A DNA stretch of 64,000 bases, taken from the NCBI GenBank assembly GCA_036262055.1, contig DATAJP010000003.1, forward strand, positions 1,101,001-1,165,000, given 5' to 3'. Below, piece by piece: positions 2,053-55,726 of the stretch. The DNA is from Ignavibacteria bacterium. GTDB taxonomy: Bacteria; Bacteroidota; Ignavibacteria; Tepidaquicellales; Tepidaquicellaceae. The translations under genes and the position numbers were made by a program. The notes below the pieces were generated by a model. It was not told the DNA's origin. It saw nothing but the letters and a program-made list of their open reading frames with translations, and made no database searches. Each line of letters opens with the position of its first letter. Position 1 is the first letter of the stretch.

Positions 2053-2087
2053 CAGCCCCTTGGACGTTCGGGGCTGTTTGTTATTTT
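2053..2087 (+). terminator. Rho-independent terminator after the small secreted protein
   Basis: CAGCCCC (2053-2059) pairs with GGGGCTG (2070-2076) across a 10-nt loop and is followed on the plus strand by a T-rich tract (TTTGTTATTTT). The minus strand lacks a T tract after the hairpin, so it should act on plus-strand transcripts. The tail overlaps the stop codon of the convergent gene. Confidence 0.65.
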
Positions 2088-3013
2088 AGTATAACCATTC
2101 TCTTTACATCTTTGAAGTCATTCGTCTCAAGTCTATAAAAATAAACTCCGCTCGGAAAATTTTTAGCATTCCACTGAACTTGATAAATACCCAGATTAAG
2201 GTTTTCATTTACCAGCGTTTCAAGTTCCTTACCAAGCATATCAAAAATTTTCAACTTAACAAATCCGAAATCCGCAATGCGAAATTCGAAATTTGTAGAG
2301 GGATTAAACGGATTTGGATAATTCTGCATCAACTCAAATTTATCAGGAACAGCACTTCCTATCTGCTGAACATGCGTCAAACTTGTATCTCCGTAAACAA
2401 TACCATTTATGACTGCACCTTTGGTATAATATGTAACACCGCCAAGCTCACACATTGAAAAACTTCTGAAGCCAATTCCTTCAACAAGATTATATTCTAA
2501 AAGTTGTGTAGGTGCGGATGCTCTTGCCGGATAATTTCTAAAAATTCTGTTTTGTCCGTATATAAAACCTGTATTTTGATTTTGAAATTTTGCCCAAGCC
2601 CAATGGGTTGTGGTAAATCGGTTACATTTGAATGTATCTCCTAATTGTGCTTTTAAACTGTCCATAAGTCTGTCAAGACTAACAGTCTCATCAAAAAAAT
2701 ATACATTCATAGTTGAAGAATCTATTCTTTGGTATCTCCAATTAGGAGTTGAAAGAATATTATTCCAACCTTCAAACACAAAATATTTTTTTCCATTATT
2801 TAATATAGTATCTCTCGTAATTTTGACTCTATAATTACCATATATTTGCATTGGAAGACATCCCAAGTCATGGAGCTGTTGCTTTACATATGTATATGAA
2901 TTTCCAATTGCCAGCGGATAAAATTTTGCTGCTGTTGTATCCCATGCAAAGCTTTGGGATGTCAGAGAAAAAAAGAAAATCTTAATTAAGAAAATTAGTA
3001 TTATCTTTTTCAT
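2081..3013 (-). CDS. Secreted protein with type IX secretion sorting domain
   Basis: This 310-residue protein has an N-terminal signal peptide (hydrophobic residues 3-20, cleavage near SFA-WD) and a C-terminal T9SS type A sorting domain from about residue 228, recognised by NYPNPFNPST, then LKIFDMLGKE and SGVYFYRLET. The domain directs export across the outer membrane and is normally removed on surface attachment or release. The central part begins FYPLAIGNSYTY, a pattern I associate with a family of secreted proteins in Ignavibacteria-like genomes of unknown function. The gene is monocistronic and convergent with the small gene to its left. The sorting-domain call is firm; the function of the mature domain is unknown. 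Confidence 0.85.
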   Translation of the reverse strand: MKKIILIFLIKIFFFSLTSQSFAWDTTAAKFYPLAIGNSYTYVKQQLHDLGCLPMQIYGNYRVKITRDTILNNGKKYFVFEGWNNILSTPNWRYQRIDSSTMNVYFFDETVSLDRLMDSLKAQLGDTFKCNRFTTTHWAWAKFQNQNTGFIYGQNRIFRNYPARASAPTQLLEYNLVEGIGFRSFSMCELGGVTYYTKGAVINGIVYGDTSLTHVQQIGSAVPDKFELMQNYPNPFNPSTNFEFRIADFGFVKLKIFDMLGKELETLVNENLNLGIYQVQWNAKNFPSGVYFYRLETNDFKDVKRMVILK

Positions 3014-43918: not shown

Positions 43919-45850
43919 CTATTTGTTTAATTCCTTTAAACATTTTTCGTATCTCTTTAAAATAGAATTTTTTTCAGTATTATTTGATCTTTCCCAGTAT
44001 TTTTCTGATAACAAAAAAGCTTTTTCAAATAAATTAACTGCATTTTTAAAATCTTTTAGCCTAACCATATTTATAGTTAGTTTATCAATCCAAAACATTA
44101 CTTGTAATTCTTGAACATTTGTAATTTTTTCTCCTAATAGTAATAAATCATTAACATAGGGCTCAAGTTTTTCAATAACGACTGATGGATTTTCTTTACC
44201 TATATCTAAAACTTTAAATAATTCCATTTCTCCATGCTTGCTCCTAATTGACTCAATTAATGATAATTCATCATTCCAAATTTCGTTATTCTTTTTTTCT
44301 TCTTCGCAAGTAATAATTCCTTCACTTAAAATCTTCTTAAATTTTTCTGTGGGAAGTTTTGCAAATTCATAGTATGAAGGATTTAATTTTATAGTCAGCT
44401 TTGAACTTAATCTATTCCAAAATACTATTACACTATTTTTATCTATCTCTAATTCTGCTGCATTTGAATCCAATTTATTTAGTAAATTCATTCTTTCTTT
44501 GAAATCAGATTCGGATAATTCTGAGAAAAAAAACAATAAAGACAACAAACTGTCACACTCACTGTCTAATGAACTTCTATGTGCTTTAATTTCTTTAAAA
44601 AATTTAACTTCTTTAATTACTTCTTTAATAATTTTTTGGTTTTCAAAGGAAATTATTGATTTTAAGATACTAAAAAGTCTTACATACACATATTTTCTAA
44701 TCAATTTAATATTAGTACTTTTTGAAAATGCTTCTTTGTATTCACATTTTTGTTCATCTGTTAACTCATTAAAATAATAATCAAAATAATCAGGTTCATT
44801 TATTAATTTTCCAGTAATATTCACCTGAACAGTTAAAATATCTAAAGGTAAATTTTGAAATTCATTTTCTAATAAAAAAATTTTTAATATATCTTCTTTA
44901 CTTTCATCATCATTTTTTCGAATATTAAATCTTTTCATAGCATCATTATACTTTTTCTCATCAATAATGTTATAATAAAGTAAATTATTAGCTTGTTTAA
45001 TGTGAGTAATTACTATTCTAGGTTTTTTGAGCTCATTAATTATTTCATGCGCACTTTTAACATAATTATCATAAAACAATCCCTCTTTTTGGGCAATTGC
45101 AAGACATTCTTCTGCTTTAGTAAAGCAATATTGCGATTCAGTCGTTAATTTAATTAAGTGAAGATTTTTTGCTAAATTACTTAGCATAGGGATTGAACTA
45201 GTTAATAAGCCTTTACCGTATTTAGTATTAGCAATATTTCTTTCATAAAACAACTTTAACCATTTATATGATTCCTCAATTTGCCAATCATCTAGTGTAA
45301 TTTCTATTAAACTAGTATATATTAAATAGATAAAATCCTTTGCTGTCATTTCATCATTGAGAAAATCTGAATTACAATCTTCATCATTATTAAATGTTTT
45401 AATACATAGAATATTATGGAATTTATCAAATGCACTATTCACTGTTTGCATTTCTTCGTTTGTGCCTCCAATATCTGGATGATACTTTTTTGCCGCAATA
45501 CGATATTTATCCTTTAAAGAATCTATCGAAACTGGTTCACTAAGATTTAACAAATGAAATCCTTTGGGATCAATGGAGGATAATGGTACCTTAAAAGTAT
45601 TTTCATCTATAATTGTTTTAATATGATTAAATGCTATGGAGTTTAATAAAGAAATATCTTTATCCGAATTAATACACGAAATAAATTTGGTTATGGAATT
45701 TTTATATGTATCATAAAATTCTCTACGAGTACCTACATGTTTTAAAGAATCAAAATAATATTTTCTTTCTTTTAGAATAAAAAATGATTCTATTAACGGT
45801 GTTTCTAAATAGTTATAACTTTTATTTATTATTGAAGTTGTATTTTCCAT
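43919..45850 (-). CDS. Orphan J-domain protein with large helical C-terminal region
   Basis: The 643-residue product has an internal J domain at about residues 100-145, with the HPD tripeptide at 124-126 in KKYHPDIGGT and a following VNSAFDKFHN helix. J domains stimulate the ATPase of DnaK. Neither the Gly/Phe linker nor zinc-finger region of classical DnaJ is present. Instead about 100 residues precede the J domain and nearly 500 residues of Lys/Asn/Ile-rich helices follow, without recognisable motifs. The start is taken as ATG 45850 (MENTTSIINK); the longer frame adds 36 atypical residues. The gene is more AT-rich than the ribosomal genes beside it and may be acquired. It is probably a client-specific co-chaperone; client unknown. 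Confidence 0.8.
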   Translation of the reverse strand: MENTTSIINKSYNYLETPLIESFFILKERKYYFDSLKHVGTRREFYDTYKNSITKFISCINSDKDISLLNSIAFNHIKTIIDENTFKVPLSSIDPKGFHLLNLSEPVSIDSLKDKYRIAAKKYHPDIGGTNEEMQTVNSAFDKFHNILCIKTFNNDEDCNSDFLNDEMTAKDFIYLIYTSLIEITLDDWQIEESYKWLKLFYERNIANTKYGKGLLTSSIPMLSNLAKNLHLIKLTTESQYCFTKAEECLAIAQKEGLFYDNYVKSAHEIINELKKPRIVITHIKQANNLLYYNIIDEKKYNDAMKRFNIRKNDDESKEDILKIFLLENEFQNLPLDILTVQVNITGKLINEPDYFDYYFNELTDEQKCEYKEAFSKSTNIKLIRKYVYVRLFSILKSIISFENQKIIKEVIKEVKFFKEIKAHRSSLDSECDSLLSLLFFFSELSESDFKERMNLLNKLDSNAAELEIDKNSVIVFWNRLSSKLTIKLNPSYYEFAKLPTEKFKKILSEGIITCEEEKKNNEIWNDELSLIESIRSKHGEMELFKVLDIGKENPSVVIEKLEPYVNDLLLLGEKITNVQELQVMFWIDKLTINMVRLKDFKNAVNLFEKAFLLSEKYWERSNNTEKNSILKRYEKCLKELNK

Positions 45851-45989
45851 TTTTCGGCTAAAAACAAAAATAACCATTTCTCCACAAACCCTCCACAACC
45901 AAAATTTCCTCGCACCCTCCCCATCCCAACCCGATTTCCTCAATATCCAAAACAACAATTCTTTATCTTTTCATGCCTTTTCTCTCGCT

Positions 45990-46275: not shown

Positions 46276-46312
46276 TACCTATGTTTAAATAAATAGAGAA
46301 AAATTGACTACT

Positions 46313-46723
46313 ATGAAAACTTTATTAAATGACTTAGCCTTAATTCCCCTATTTTTAATCATATTTGCGGTGGTTTCGCCGATGTTCACTTCCTGCTCAC
46401 AAAAAGGTGAAAACATGAGTAACGAAAACGCAAACTATGACACGAAGACACAGGAGCAAAGAACAATCGAAAGCGTTCATAAGGATTTAAGCAGCATTCC
46501 TCAATATGCGCATCCGGCTATTCTGATAAATAACAACACAAGCTCCGGCGTAAAAGAAAATGTGAATAGGAAAAAAGACGATGCAAAAAAAGTGACTGAA
46601 GATAAAAATGAAAAGAAACCTGAAGTAAAAACCGAAGATACGAAAACAAAAGACCCGCGAATGGCAGATGACACCGAAATGGACCCGAAAAATAAATTTC
46701 CCGAAAACTACAACGGGAAATAA
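46313..46723 (+). CDS. Small lipoprotein with Lys/Asp/Glu-rich tail
   Basis: The 136-residue product starts MKTLLNDLALIPLFLIIFAVV and has the lipobox MFTSC, so it is a probable lipoprotein. The mature part is low-complexity and highly charged (KKDDAKKVTEDKNEKKPEVK), likely disordered. The start is put at ATG 46313 rather than the TTG three codons earlier. It lies between two repeat mosaics and has no partner gene. It may be a genuine but unconserved protein. Confidence 0.6.
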   Translation: MKTLLNDLALIPLFLIIFAVVSPMFTSCSQKGENMSNENANYDTKTQEQRTIESVHKDLSSIPQYAHPAILINNNTSSGVKENVNRKKDDAKKVTEDKNEKKPEVKTEDTKTKDPRMADDTEMDPKNKFPENYNGK

Positions 46724-46986: not shown

Positions 46987-48021
46987 TTAATACGATTCAA
47001 GAACTGCCGAGCCCTTGATAGAATATTTATCAGCATTTGGAGCAATCGAAGGATTGGCAGCATTTAATTTTATTTCGGTATAAATCTCTTTATAAAAGTA
47101 ACTCGAATCAACTCCCTCTCTCACGAAATTATCCCAAAAAGGTCTTAAAGTGGGGAATATTACATCACCGGTCTGTTCATCTAACAATATTCCAAAATCA
47201 AATTTTCCATCAGGCGGAGGTTCTCCTGTTACTCCCGTATACCGGTCTATGTCAAGCATTGTTGAAAGTGATTTCTGAAACCCCGGAAGTTTATTTTGAT
47301 AAGTTCCGTCTTTAAGATAAACAACATCCAATGTTAAATAATAAGGTATGATATTATTATAAGGAAGCCGGTAAACATTTTTCATTTTCAATTCCCACGC
47401 AGTAGGCATTGTAGCGGGATTTATATTCGGACATTTTATCATTTTTAAAATTAACGTGTCGTTTCCGTTAACAGCAGAACTTGGAGTTCCATATAAACTG
47501 TCATTTACCGTTTTGTATGTTACAGCAACTGCGTAATTTTCAAAAACATTTATTTTTAATGAAATAAATCCAGCATAAGGATAGGAAACATATTCGCTTT
47601 GATGTAATTTTCTAAAGTAACCGTTAAAAATTTTTCCTTCAGTTTGCGGTAAGGTTTTATATGAACTATCGTAGCCGGAACCCGGCTGCGAGTGAAGCAT
47701 CGTAATTGCAGCCGCATATCTTTTATTTATTGTAGTTATATCGGTTTGCACCCAAACTTCGAAAGTGTTCCAATCTTCAGACAAAACTCTATTGGCTTCG
47801 GTCTCTGGTCTTAAAACTCCGGTAGTATTGTTAAAATAATCAAGAAAGCTTGCTTTGTAAATCGTATCAAAAAAATAATGCGAATCTGAATAGTTATAAG
47901 CTCTTAAAATAAATTCAGAAGGTACAACTGACACCGGGTCGGAACATGATGAAATAAAAAGGGCGGATACTAAAAACGCAACCATTGCAGAAATGACATT
48001 TTTTAGTTTTTTCATTTTCAA
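46987..48021 (-). CDS. Lipoprotein with SprA-like motif, copy 1
   Basis: This 344-residue product is a lipoprotein (lipobox LFISSC, Cys about 26). A beta-rich middle leads to a C-terminal block at about residues 247-303 (LSTMLDIDRYTG, EPPPDGKFDF, VIFPTLRPFWD). That order matches the repeated module of SprA, the very large T9SS outer-membrane translocon protein, where similar DIDRLN / PDGVFD / IIFPVLEPFG strings occur. It is far too small to be SprA and has no barrel repeats. It is a paralogue of the next gene on the minus strand, 80 nt upstream. Role inferred as a periplasmic or outer-membrane accessory; not established. Confidence 0.78.
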   Translation of the reverse strand: MKMKKLKNVISAMVAFLVSALFISSCSDPVSVVPSEFILRAYNYSDSHYFFDTIYKASFLDYFNNTTGVLRPETEANRVLSEDWNTFEVWVQTDITTINKRYAAAITMLHSQPGSGYDSSYKTLPQTEGKIFNGYFRKLHQSEYVSYPYAGFISLKINVFENYAVAVTYKTVNDSLYGTPSSAVNGNDTLILKMIKCPNINPATMPTAWELKMKNVYRLPYNNIIPYYLTLDVVYLKDGTYQNKLPGFQKSLSTMLDIDRYTGVTGEPPPDGKFDFGILLDEQTGDVIFPTLRPFWDNFVREGVDSSYFYKEIYTEIKLNAANPSIAPNADKYSIKGSAVLESY

Positions 48022-48101
48022 TTTATTTAGTTAGCGGAGTAAATTTTTAATTCAACCTCAGTATTTGAAAAAAGTTCTGTTTACTTTCAATATAGTTTGC
48101 A

Positions 48102-49118
48102 TTAAGGATAATACCTGTATTTCCCTAGTATTCTGTAGTCATAAGCATTTTCTACATTCATAGCTTCTGATTTTGACTTCGTATAAAGCTCAGGGTACCA
48201 ATAAATCGAACCCGCACCTTCGCGAATAAGATTATCATAGAAAGGTCTTAACGTCGGAAAAATCAATTCGTTCGTTCCAAAATCAATTGTATATCCTTCA
48301 AGCAAATCAAACTTTCCGTCCGGGGGCGGTTCACGTGTCGTTCCTGTATACCTGTCTATGTCAAGCATTGTTGAAATCGATTTACTGAAGCCGGGGAGAT
48401 GAGTTTGATATCCGTTAGAATAATATTTCACATTAAGTTCAAATCCGTCAGTTGTAACGGCATACGGGAGAACGTAAACATTTTTTAGTTTCAGTTCCCA
48501 TGCAAGAGGCGTATCAATGGGGTGAAGATATGCCCATTGAACAAGCTTTAAAATCAATGTATCGTTGGGTGCAGCCGAACTAACCGGTGTTCCGAATAAT
48601 TTTCCGCTGCTTGTTTTATAAGTAACGGCAACAACATCATCTTCGCCGGTATATTTTAAATAAATAAATCCCGGCTTAGAGTGCATTGCATATTCATATG
48701 GGTGCATTCTTCTGAATCTGCCGTACATTTTTTTTCCCAAAACAGGATTGCCGGTTTTGAGTGTGTCGGAATATCCGCCTACCGGTTGTTCGTACAGCAT
48801 CGTATGAGCATATGCAAACACACCTGCCGAATCAGTAATACTGATTTTAATCCAGACTTCAAACGTTGCCGTATCGTTTACTAAAACTTCATTCTGAATT
48901 GTATGCTCTGTTAATGTTCCTGTTGTGTTATTATAATAATCGAGAAAGCTTGCTTTATAAAGCGTATCAAAAAAATAATGACCATCGGAATATTCATAAG
49001 GATAAAAATCAAAATTTACATCGTGAGGTGGAACAACGATATCTTCGTTGCATGATAAAACAAAAAAGGCGGATACTAAAATAACCATGACCGGTAAAAT
49101 ATTTTTTAGTTTTTTCAT
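48102..49118 (-). CDS. Lipoprotein with SprA-like motif, copy 2
   Basis: This 338-residue lipoprotein (lipobox FFVLSC, Cys about 23) is clearly paralogous to the gene at 46987. They share YSDGHYFFDTLYKASFLDYYNNTTGTL near the start, an AWELKLKNVYVLPY block and the C-terminal STMLDIDRYTG / EPPPDGKFDLLEGYTID / ELIFPTLRPF block at about 243-300. The GYTID...IFPTLRPF arrangement is the closest match in the window to SprA_N-type modules. The two are tandem in the same orientation and probably co-transcribed, with this copy first. Identity is moderate, so the duplication is not recent. Function unknown. Confidence 0.78.
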   Translation of the reverse strand: MKKLKNILPVMVILVSAFFVLSCNEDIVVPPHDVNFDFYPYEYSDGHYFFDTLYKASFLDYYNNTTGTLTEHTIQNEVLVNDTATFEVWIKISITDSAGVFAYAHTMLYEQPVGGYSDTLKTGNPVLGKKMYGRFRRMHPYEYAMHSKPGFIYLKYTGEDDVVAVTYKTSSGKLFGTPVSSAAPNDTLILKLVQWAYLHPIDTPLAWELKLKNVYVLPYAVTTDGFELNVKYYSNGYQTHLPGFSKSISTMLDIDRYTGTTREPPPDGKFDLLEGYTIDFGTNELIFPTLRPFYDNLIREGAGSIYWYPELYTKSKSEAMNVENAYDYRILGKYRYYP

Positions 49119-51812: not shown

Positions 51813-53405
51813 ATGAAATATTTAATTACTTTTATTGCATTATCGTGTGTTCTGCTTTCAAATAACATTTCAAAGTCACAACCAAGAGGATGGGAGTTTG
51901 GCGATATAGTATGGGAAATTACCGTCCCAAATAATCCGGGAACAACGGTTCAGGATAAACAAATCAAAAGCTTAAAACAAATTCCTGATGTTAACGGAGA
52001 TGGTGTTAATGACGTTGTTGTTGCAACGGGAAATTACTGGACGCTTTGTTACAGCGGACTAAATGGGAATTTACTCTGGCAATACAGTACACACTTTGGG
52101 TCAATAAATACCGGTTCCGTTGAGTGGGAAGATGCAATGGAAATTGCTGACGTTAACAACAATGGCGTTTATGATGTTGTAATAGGATGCGGCGGCGGAA
52201 ATGAAATGGTATATGCTCTTAACGGGAACAACGGAGCAGTATTATGGTCTTACGGAAATCCTACTACAACAAATGACGGTGACATTGAAGCCATCAGCAT
52301 AAAATATGATTTCAATAGCGATGGAATAAAAGACGTAATTGTGTCTGCAAGCGGCGTAACAAGCGGCGGCAGACATGCAGCAATTTGCCTCAATGCAGTT
52401 AACGGGCAGCAAATTTTTTATTCTACCATGTCCCAGCCGTTTACTGATGACGCAATTGCAATTGAAACCGGCGCAGCAATCGGAGTTAATAACAACGGTG
52501 CGCCATATGGTGTTGTAGGTCTTAACACTGCAGGAAGCATTGTCTGGAACTATACCGCTCCCGGAAATATATGGACTTTAAAAGAAATTCCTGATATCAA
52601 TAATAACGGCGGAAAAGATATCATCGGTCTCGGTGGTTTCAATAGTTCAATTTTTGCGATTTCAGGAAACTCAGGTACGCAAATCTGGGCATCAAACTTG
52701 GGTTCAGGCAATAACGGCAAAATTTGTTTGCTCGATGATGCAAACGGAAACGGCTCAATAGATTTTTCGGCATCGGCTCCGCAGGTTGCCTGCAGGGTTG
52801 ACTCAAAAACAGGAACAATCATCTGGCAAAATCCTCTGGGTTCTTCTTATTTGAGAGGCATCGATAATCTTGATGATATTACAGGTGATGGGATTGATGA
52901 CATAGTTATTGCTACGCAGCTTCAGCCGCGTCTGGTTGTTCTCAATGGCAACAGCGGAGCAATATTGTTTGACTATAGTTTCGGGACAACTTTAAACCAG
53001 AGAGGCGATAGAGCTGCCGTTTTAAAAGATATCGATACAAATGGAGTAAATGAATTTCTTGGAGGCAATCGCGAAGGAAGAGTGATTTGTTTTTATGGAG
53101 GTGACGGAACCATAACAAACATTGAGCCCGAAACCCATCCTGTTAATTTTAGCTTACACCAAAATTTCCCGAATCCGTTTAATCCTTCAACAAGCATTAA
53201 ATTTGAATTACCGACAAAAACATTTGCGACTTTGAAAGTTTATAATGTATTAGGAAAAGAAGTAGCTGTACTTTTGAACGGCGAGATTAACGGAGGAACT
53301 CATGAATTTTCTTTTGATGCAACAGGGCTTTCATCGGGAGTTTATTTTTATACTTTACAAACTCTTGACTATAAAGAAACAAAAAAAATGCTACTTACAA
53401 AATAA
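51813..53405 (+). CDS. Secreted FG-GAP/VCBS-repeat protein with T9SS sorting domain
   Basis: The 530-residue product has a signal peptide (cleavage near KSQ-PR) and about seven blade-like repeats, each with a D-x-N-x-D/N-G-x-x-D calcium-binding loop, such as DVNGDGVNDVVVATG, DFNSDGIKDVIV and DITGDGIDDIVIAT. This predicts a calcium-stabilised beta-propeller, alternating with PQQ-like NGNLLWQYS blades. The C-terminal 85 residues are a T9SS type A sorting domain (NFPNPFNPSTSIKFEL ... LSSGVYFYTLQ). It should be exported to the cell surface. Function is likely adhesion or binding; not established. Confidence 0.9.
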   Translation: MKYLITFIALSCVLLSNNISKSQPRGWEFGDIVWEITVPNNPGTTVQDKQIKSLKQIPDVNGDGVNDVVVATGNYWTLCYSGLNGNLLWQYSTHFGSINTGSVEWEDAMEIADVNNNGVYDVVIGCGGGNEMVYALNGNNGAVLWSYGNPTTTNDGDIEAISIKYDFNSDGIKDVIVSASGVTSGGRHAAICLNAVNGQQIFYSTMSQPFTDDAIAIETGAAIGVNNNGAPYGVVGLNTAGSIVWNYTAPGNIWTLKEIPDINNNGGKDIIGLGGFNSSIFAISGNSGTQIWASNLGSGNNGKICLLDDANGNGSIDFSASAPQVACRVDSKTGTIIWQNPLGSSYLRGIDNLDDITGDGIDDIVIATQLQPRLVVLNGNSGAILFDYSFGTTLNQRGDRAAVLKDIDTNGVNEFLGGNREGRVICFYGGDGTITNIEPETHPVNFSLHQNFPNPFNPSTSIKFELPTKTFATLKVYNVLGKEVAVLLNGEINGGTHEFSFDATGLSSGVYFYTLQTLDYKETKKMLLTK

Positions 53406-53462: not shown

Positions 53463-55604
53463 TTATTTTACTAACATCATTCTTTTGGTTTCAATAAATG
53501 TACCTGCTTCCATCCTGTAAAAATATACTCCGCTTGTATAATTAATTGCATTCCATTCTACTTCATAAGTCGAAGCATTTAGATATTCATTAACAATTGT
53601 CGAAATTTCCTTCCCAAGTATGTTATATATCTTTATGGATACAAAAGATGATTTCGGAACTTCAAATTTTATTTTTGTCGATGGATTAAAAGGATTCGGA
53701 TAATTTTGAGAAAGCAAGTGAGTCTTGGGAATTTCATTTGAAATAGTTTGTATTCCGACTGCACCTCCATTTGTTGTTTTAAGTATGGTTCCCCCTTCCC
53801 CAACGGCATACACTGTATTATTATCAATGCCATAAAGAGCATTTAAAAGTTTATTTGTACCTGTATTTTGTCTTGTCCATGTTAACCCTCCGTCTGTAGT
53901 TTTTATAACCGAGCAATCATTTCCTAAATTTGAACCGCATGCATATGCAGTCTGACCAATTGTAAAAGTAATATCTTTTAAAGTATTTTGCGTAATAAGC
54001 GGCAGCCGAACCCAGTTAAGACCACCATCGGTAGTTCTATACATTGATCCGGCTGAACCGACTGAAATACCGGTGTTTGCATCAAAAAAATCCACCCCAA
54101 ACTGTGTATCCAAAAAACCTCCAACATTCACCTGTGTCCAATTCAGGCCTGTATTCGTTGTTCTGAATATTCTTCCTCCTTCACCCACAGCAATGCCTGT
54201 TGTATTATCATTAAGAAACATTATATCATACATAGTCCACGTGACACCTGAAATGCTTACCCAGTTATTTCCGCCATTAGTGGTTCGCAAAATCGCACCG
54301 AAATTTCCAACTGCAACCCCTGTGGATGCATTTACAAATTCAACATCATGAAGCATTCCGGAATTTGCCGTATGCTGTGTTGTCCAGGTCAGACCGCCGT
54401 TTACAGTGTTAAGAATGATGCGCTGTTGAGGACTGTCTTTTCCACCAACAGCCCACCCCGTTGACGAATTAATAAAATAACACGAATTCAAATCAAGAGT
54501 TGTTCCACTTGATGCACTTAGCCAATTTGTACCATTGTTTGATGTTGTGGAAATGCGGCCTGCATTTCCAACACAAACTCCGTTTTCTCCAAATATATCA
54601 AAGAAAAATACTTTATTTATTTCTCTTAAATCATTTATATCGGGGTTATACCAGGTTAACCCTCCATCAGTTGTTACTATTTGTCCCGACCATCCCCAAG
54701 CATATCCGTTATTAGGTTCTTCAGGGAAAAACTCAATGTAGTAAATAGTCTCTCCATATGGATCAGTGTAAACCACTGACCAGTTATTTCCGCCGTTTGA
54801 AGTGCGATAAATTTTACCGTTTGCACCTACTGCCAATGCTTCGGAAGCACTTTTCATAAATATTTCATTAAGAGGCAGACCGGGACCTCCCAGTATTTCA
54901 AACCAGGTGCTTCCTCCATTTGTAGTTTTTAATATCTGATTAAATGCACCTACAATCATTCCCGTATTTGCATCACAAAATGAAACTCCAAGCAAGCTTG
55001 CACCTCCCGAAGGATTTGTTACATCAAGCCAGTTTGCACCACCATCCAAGCTTCTGTATATCTTTCCGTTAGTACCAATTGCTATAGCACGAGGATCAGC
55101 TCCCGGAAGAAAATTTATTTTTTGTATGTCCGAAGCAGGATTATTAAATGCCAGAGTAAATATATTTCCATGGTCTACAGAAAGAAGAATTTTCCCGTTA
55201 TTACCCGCTACGAGAATATTTGGTCCTTTTGAATCAACTGTATTTAAATTTGCATATCCCTGTGCAAGAGTTGCCCAGCTGCCTCCTGCATTTGTTGTAA
55301 TCTTTGCTCCATCTCTTCCAACCACAACTATTTTTTGAGTATTTTCAATAACCTCTATATCTTTTAAATCTCCTTCACCAACAGGATTCATGGTGATATA
55401 AGTTGAATCATTAATTCTTTTCAATAATGTACCGTGCTCACCGCATATGTAAATGGTTCCATCAGGAGCCCTTGCAATACTGAATATTCCATTTCCCATA
55501 GGCATCGGTTCCTGCCAAATCCAGCCCGAACCTGAAACACTGATTTGAGAAAATACATCGGTAAAAAAAATAGTCATTAAAATAATTAATATTAATTTTT
55601 TCAT
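53463..55604 (-). CDS. Secreted YCF48/BNR-repeat protein with T9SS sorting domain
   Basis: The 713-residue product has a signal peptide (MKKLILIILMTIFFTDVFSQ). About a dozen beta-propeller repeats follow with phrases like TTNGGSTWFEI, TSNGGNNWSVV and TTDGGLTWTRQ, separated by GxAVGxxG strings as in YCF48/sialidase BNR-type propellers. The final 90 residues form a T9SS sorting domain (NYPNPFNPSTKIKFEV ... TSGVYFYRMEAG). The start is ATG 55604, which has an AAGGAG site six nt upstream; the longer frame to 55652 is not supported. The upstream leader carries mutually exclusive inverted repeats. It is probably an exported surface or secreted protein of unknown ligand. Confidence 0.9.
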   Translation of the reverse strand: MKKLILIILMTIFFTDVFSQISVSGSGWIWQEPMPMGNGIFSIARAPDGTIYICGEHGTLLKRINDSTYITMNPVGEGDLKDIEVIENTQKIVVVGRDGAKITTNAGGSWATLAQGYANLNTVDSKGPNILVAGNNGKILLSVDHGNIFTLAFNNPASDIQKINFLPGADPRAIAIGTNGKIYRSLDGGANWLDVTNPSGGASLLGVSFCDANTGMIVGAFNQILKTTNGGSTWFEILGGPGLPLNEIFMKSASEALAVGANGKIYRTSNGGNNWSVVYTDPYGETIYYIEFFPEEPNNGYAWGWSGQIVTTDGGLTWYNPDINDLREINKVFFFDIFGENGVCVGNAGRISTTSNNGTNWLSASSGTTLDLNSCYFINSSTGWAVGGKDSPQQRIILNTVNGGLTWTTQHTANSGMLHDVEFVNASTGVAVGNFGAILRTTNGGNNWVSISGVTWTMYDIMFLNDNTTGIAVGEGGRIFRTTNTGLNWTQVNVGGFLDTQFGVDFFDANTGISVGSAGSMYRTTDGGLNWVRLPLITQNTLKDITFTIGQTAYACGSNLGNDCSVIKTTDGGLTWTRQNTGTNKLLNALYGIDNNTVYAVGEGGTILKTTNGGAVGIQTISNEIPKTHLLSQNYPNPFNPSTKIKFEVPKSSFVSIKIYNILGKEISTIVNEYLNASTYEVEWNAINYTSGVYFYRMEAGTFIETKRMMLVK

Positions 55605-55640
55605 TTTAAACTCCTTAATAAATGAACAGGCGAATCTGCT

Positions 55641-55726
55641 ATTTCGAGGCAATCGAAATGTATCTGTGATATTGCTGACCCGCCCGTAATTTGAAATTTT
55701 AAATTTGAATTTTTCATTGCCTCGAA
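55641..55726 (-). promoter_or_regulatory. Leader with alternative pairings before the YCF48-repeat gene
   Basis: An 11-nt arm TTCGAGGCAAT (55643-55653) matches ATTGCCTCGAA (55716-55726), and the same sequence can instead form the local hairpin ATTTCGA-GGCAA-TCGAAAT (55641-55659). The two pairings exclude each other. The site lies 37-120 nt upstream of the ATG on the minus strand. Confidence 0.4.

Follow-up and report, generated by a model that had tools for sequence, protein, structure and literature searches.

Why should a bacterium carry, twice in tandem, a piece of SprA, the outer-membrane translocon of its type IX secretion system (T9SS), in the form of small lipoproteins? The question is raised by a genomic window of an Ignavibacteria bacterium (the window being the whole 64,000-nucleotide stretch of DNA analyzed here), in which two co-directional genes on the minus strand encode lipoprotein 1 (48102-49118, 338 aa) and lipoprotein 2 (46987-48015, 342 aa from the ATG at 48015), separated with that start by a gap of 86 bases. 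A preliminary description of this DNA had proposed two tandem lipoproteins of ~340 residues with a DIDRYTG/PPPDGKFD/IFPTLRPF block, and both open reading frames, each with the block, are indeed present at these coordinates. The open reading frame list starts lipoprotein 2 at a TTG (48021); we prefer the ATG because the resulting signal peptide, MKKLKNVISAMVAFLVSALFISSC (47944-48015, minus strand), parallels MKKLKNILPVMVILVSAFFVLSC of lipoprotein 1 (49050-49118, minus strand). Each signal peptide ends in a lipobox-type Cys (residue 23 in lipoprotein 1), beyond which about 300 more residues make up one SprA-homologous domain, delimited by alignment with SprA at 48111-49016 (residues about 35-336) in lipoprotein 1 and at 46999-47910 in lipoprotein 2, both on the minus strand. 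The Cys is kept in 15/15 stand-alone rows of the alignment, as are the core motif residues, and the two proteins are predicted lipoproteins on the basis of sequence. Acidic residues after the Cys, a signal for export, did not separate the stand-alone copies from other lipoproteins; a Pfam search detected no T9SS C-terminal sorting domain (PF18962/PF13585) in either protein, and a promoter and terminator scan performed no better than chance.

Homology to SprA, as had been proposed, is upheld by both profile and predicted fold. The NCBIfam model TIGR04189 (SprA), which has 2319 positions, matches each lipoprotein over about 373-590 with 85 bits (E 1.5e-24 for lipoprotein 1 and 1.9e-24 for lipoprotein 2). 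Its equivalog cut-off, 200 bits, is set for the full-length protein, and a lower score is expected since only one domain of SprA is present. Lipoprotein 1 is 49% identical to the SprA of its own genome over residues 26-334, while lipoprotein 2 shares 61% identity with the own SprA domain vs 52% with lipoprotein 1, its tandem neighbor. The block had been taken for a repeated module of SprA, a view that has to be given up: the own-genome SprA, 2206 residues long, has it once, and a search for a second copy there found none. The profile check that had been suggested, against Pfam SprA_N (PF14349), gave no match for either lipoprotein, nor did any other Pfam model at E up to 1. That check alone would have failed for the wrong reason, because SprA_N covers a different part of the own-genome SprA. 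Single-sequence queries were similarly uninformative, with no match from phmmer against PDB using a single lipoprotein or from a first scan of the genome contigs using a single sequence; phmmer with full-length SprA matches 6h3i/6h3j. The fold core is kept in the stand-alone copies: among 69 SprA-invariant columns, 47 keep their letter in at least 80% of them, and several of those lost (30, 34, 334, 336) sit at the junctions to the barrel.

Mature lipoprotein 1 was modeled by AlphaFold2 from 35 aligned sequences with high confidence (pLDDT 93.6, pTM 0.90). Foldseek with this model returned only SprA chains at E below 0.001, and VIA-align superposed it on residues 276-683 of F. johnsoniae SprA (6h3j) at Z 16.7, with 292 residues aligned at 2.6 A, whereas the best unrelated chain reached only Z 3.3; no other known fold relative of the domain was found by either program. 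The two outcomes named beforehand as fatal to the SprA assignment, a missing profile match and structures that do not superpose, were thus not what was observed. Given the confident model and its match to SprA 276-683, the prediction is that the domain can fold independently of the barrel. An AlphaFold model of a truncated SprA segment was poor outside the domain (pLDDT 57.8) and leaves the barrel topology unconfirmed; its domain part still matches SprA 276-683. Compared with SprA/Sov (TIGR04189; PDB 6h3i, 6h3j, 8gl6, 8gl8), the whole mature lipoprotein corresponds in sequence and predicted fold to residues about 276-683, but it has neither the barrel, the periplasmic N-terminus nor the second half, forming a single globular domain in the model with a predicted lipid anchor instead and about one seventh of the SprA length.

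The position of this domain within SprA bears on what its free form might do. A tight turn precedes the strand that leads into the domain, and the strands that come after the domain pair in a tight-turn hairpin; under the common rule for outer-membrane barrels, this strand topology most likely places the domain on the outer face of SprA. More than 150 kDa of SprA lies on the outer side (PMC12611786). Within the aligned SprA segment the domain is the variable part, with a mean column identity of 0.48 vs 0.70-0.71 in the flanks. The preliminary description had suggested that such proteins could cap or plug the translocon; with the domain most probably exposed on the outside of SprA, a cap fits as far as this topology goes, and we found no support for a plug.

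When 99 genomes (that of the window and those of relatives) were searched at the protein level, SprA was detected in nearly all of them, and the window's family proved to have stand-alone copies, as open frames 335-370 residues long. Within this family, copies were found in 11/29 genomes, sometimes two per genome and in one case only as a contig-edge fragment. Further copies belong to groups f10, f13, f18 and f22 (G078, G219, G055, G140, G184), so that no fewer than five families of the class have them; none outside the class was among the best matches listed. Where records with copies are named, they are metagenome assemblies of Ignavibacteria/Ignavibacteriota, in a few cases labelled Bacteroidetes. 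Whether full-length SprA is encoded in the same genome and whether small paralogs co-occur with it had been posed as checks, and by genome search both hold; most SprA-bearing genomes are without a copy. One relative (G002; L049, L051) has two full-length SprA genes (2215 and 2182 residues) plus two stand-alone copies on other contigs. In G184, an IS110-type transposase (L143:7073-7609) adjoins the stand-alone copy, a possible mobile context. A literature search found no report of such stand-alone SprA-domain proteins, an absence that is not proof; what is new here is a known SprA domain in free-standing, lipid-anchored form.

In a tree of 45 domains, the 13 copies from the window's family cannot be accounted for by fewer than seven changes between the stand-alone and the SprA form, and a single origin, with the copies as one clade, is rejected by the AU test (p 6.5e-5). 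By identity, the SprA of the own genome ranks first of 32 for 9/13 family copies and that of a near relative comes first for the remaining 4/13, so that the own-lineage SprA is nearest in 13/13; in other families the own SprA is nearest in 5/5 copies for which it is known. Together, for 18/18 testable copies the most similar SprA is that of the same genome or of the closest relatives, which, with the rejection of one clade, fits either repeated release of the domain, each time in lipoprotein form and with identical boundaries, or ongoing gene conversion by SprA. Sliding-window ranks gave no clean answer between repeated duplication and gene conversion; within the window itself, recent gene conversion is unlikely, DNA identity being only 57-64%. 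Two species share one syntenic copy. In the copies dN is well below dS (e.g. 0.47 v 1.5 and 0.41 v 2.7), most substitutions are synonymous and selection is purifying overall; the copies evolve faster than the SprA domain (51% vs 89% identity between the same two species).

The host genome (2.87 Mb, 95% complete) encodes one SprA, PorV, the PorU sortase and at least 150 C-terminal sorting domain matches, so a working T9SS is very likely. GldM was not found in it by TIGR03517, a search that gave no match in the controls either and thus had no positive control. Besides the PorU adjoining PorV there is a second PorU-like frame (G000 C2:128964-133709; 1633 residues) scoring 280 bits, below the cut-off. 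Three T9SS cargo proteins had been described in the window, and three Por_Secre_tail C-terminal signals (PF18962) are present: at 51813-53405 (plus strand, 1.1e-9), the third gene away from the pair and on the other strand; at 53463-55652 (minus strand, 4.7e-9); and, far from the pair, at 2081-3013 (minus strand, 1.4e-8). The tandem pair itself is flanked by cydAB and a short unrelated frame, with no adjoining cargo gene. Also in the vicinity are a short predicted lipoprotein with a charged low-complexity tail (46304-46723, plus strand), convergent with the pair, and a 679-residue frame (43919-45958, minus strand) that adjoins ribosomal protein genes and has a weak DnaJ domain, narrowly missing the cut-off at 1.5e-5.

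The functional link to the T9SS that had been suggested from the window's cargo genes is supported by the relatives and not by the window, whose pair is the exception. In the window's family, 7/12 loci have a directly adjoining same-strand T9SS cargo gene, compared with 8.5-12% of control genes from the same genomes (Fisher 4e-5 to 2.5e-4), and with the syntenic pair removed the count is 6/11 (Fisher 2e-4 to 1e-3); these values are to be read as those of an adjacency test devised after seeing the same data. The cargo genes beside the copies are of mixed type, several loci have neighbors unrelated to the T9SS, and none of the copies from other families directly adjoins a same-strand cargo gene. 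Genes for PorP/SprF-like shuttle proteins likewise often adjoin T9SS cargo genes, as in F. johnsoniae, where 9/12 type B cargo genes have such a neighbor (PMC12618676). Those proteins are outer-membrane barrels, whereas the copies are soluble-domain lipoproteins, and in contrast to type B cargo the tested cargo near the copies matches Por_Secre_tail. SusD and BamH, Bacteroidota surface lipoproteins working with outer-membrane barrels (PMC12611786), offer another parallel as predicted lipid-anchored partners of a large outer-membrane machine, but the fold search found no relation to them, and the copies have their source in the very barrel protein concerned.

We tentatively propose, as the preferred reading though at somewhat less than even odds, that these proteins are outer-membrane lipoproteins acting as accessories of T9SS export or cargo handling. 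Their domain most likely goes back to several independent copying events from the SprA of the host, with lipoprotein form and identical boundaries on every occasion. The product, probably facing outward, would use the binding surface of the SprA domain apart from the channel and may hold, hand over or retain cargo, or the PorV carrier, just after exit from SprA; alternatively, it might dock beside SprA and alter the outer face of the channel. In F. johnsoniae, PorV loops and SprA bind the cargo CTD between them, about 1,000 A2 being buried against SprA, and the CTD is assisted by the SprA cap, whose contacts form part of the published model (PMC10994853). By analogy with these contacts, a free lipid-anchored SprA domain could bind released cargo or PorV, or dock on SprA, and the strand topology suggests that the domain may contact cargo or PorV. 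An accessory role is consistent with the homology to SprA, the presence of a T9SS, the co-occurrence of the copies with SprA, the cargo neighbors in the family, the kept fold core, the purifying selection and the recurrent origin; against it stand the window's pair, without an adjoining cargo gene, and the copies outside the family, none with a directly adjoining same-strand one.

It is unlikely that the domain serves instead as a general surface binding protein for a polymer or small ligand, unrelated to secretion, with the copy in SprA an outer decoration. The lipoprotein form, the absence of other known fold relatives in our searches and the T9SS-unrelated neighbors of several loci would suit such a protein, but the enrichment beside cargo genes would not. 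Distinctly unlikely, in our judgment, is a decoy or shield, in which the lipoprotein mimics the exposed SprA domain and soaks up phages, bacteriocins or other SprA binders, or masks SprA. This would need likeness to the host's own SprA, which is seen in all 18 testable copies, and it agrees with the variability of the domain relative to its flanks (48% vs 70-71%), with the faster change of the copies and with their patchy distribution. However, the cargo neighbors and the overall purifying selection argue otherwise, and defense-island context is scarce, with 1/10 scanned neighbors matching a defense model (SIR2-TPR, L050). No phage or toxin is known to us to exploit SprA, a point that weighs weakly against a decoy. 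The SIR2-TPR protein (L050:9207-11252) lies directly downstream of a stand-alone copy and resembles the SIR2 parts of Argonaute defense systems.

That the free domain is an assembly factor, aiding the folding of the outer SprA part or exchanging with it during channel biogenesis, we consider very unlikely: resemblance to the same-genome SprA and the predicted independent folding accord with it, but it is not generally needed, as most SprA-bearing genomes have no copy, and it leaves the cargo neighbors unexplained. Chance leftovers of duplicated SprA genes, an idea to which the patchy occurrence and repeated origin would lend themselves, are scarcely credible, being already contradicted at the sequence level by complete domain boundaries, a signal peptide with lipobox-type Cys in every aligned copy, dN well below dS and syntenic retention in two species.

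How the T9SS translocon works is being elucidated through structures from a single species, and our literature search found no separate account of what the outer SprA domain does. Release of one and the same domain time and again, in many cases next to cargo genes, points to a binding role of its own apart from the channel. Its natural, soluble versions, predicted to be well folded and corresponding to exactly this part of SprA, are a tool for finding its ligand. More speculatively, and rather improbably, the class may keep generating lipid-anchored copies of the exposed domain of its own channel as self-matched partners or decoys. Such copies would serve either as an exchangeable outer face by which the choice of cargo kept at the surface is tuned, or as a decoy against SprA-binding agents.
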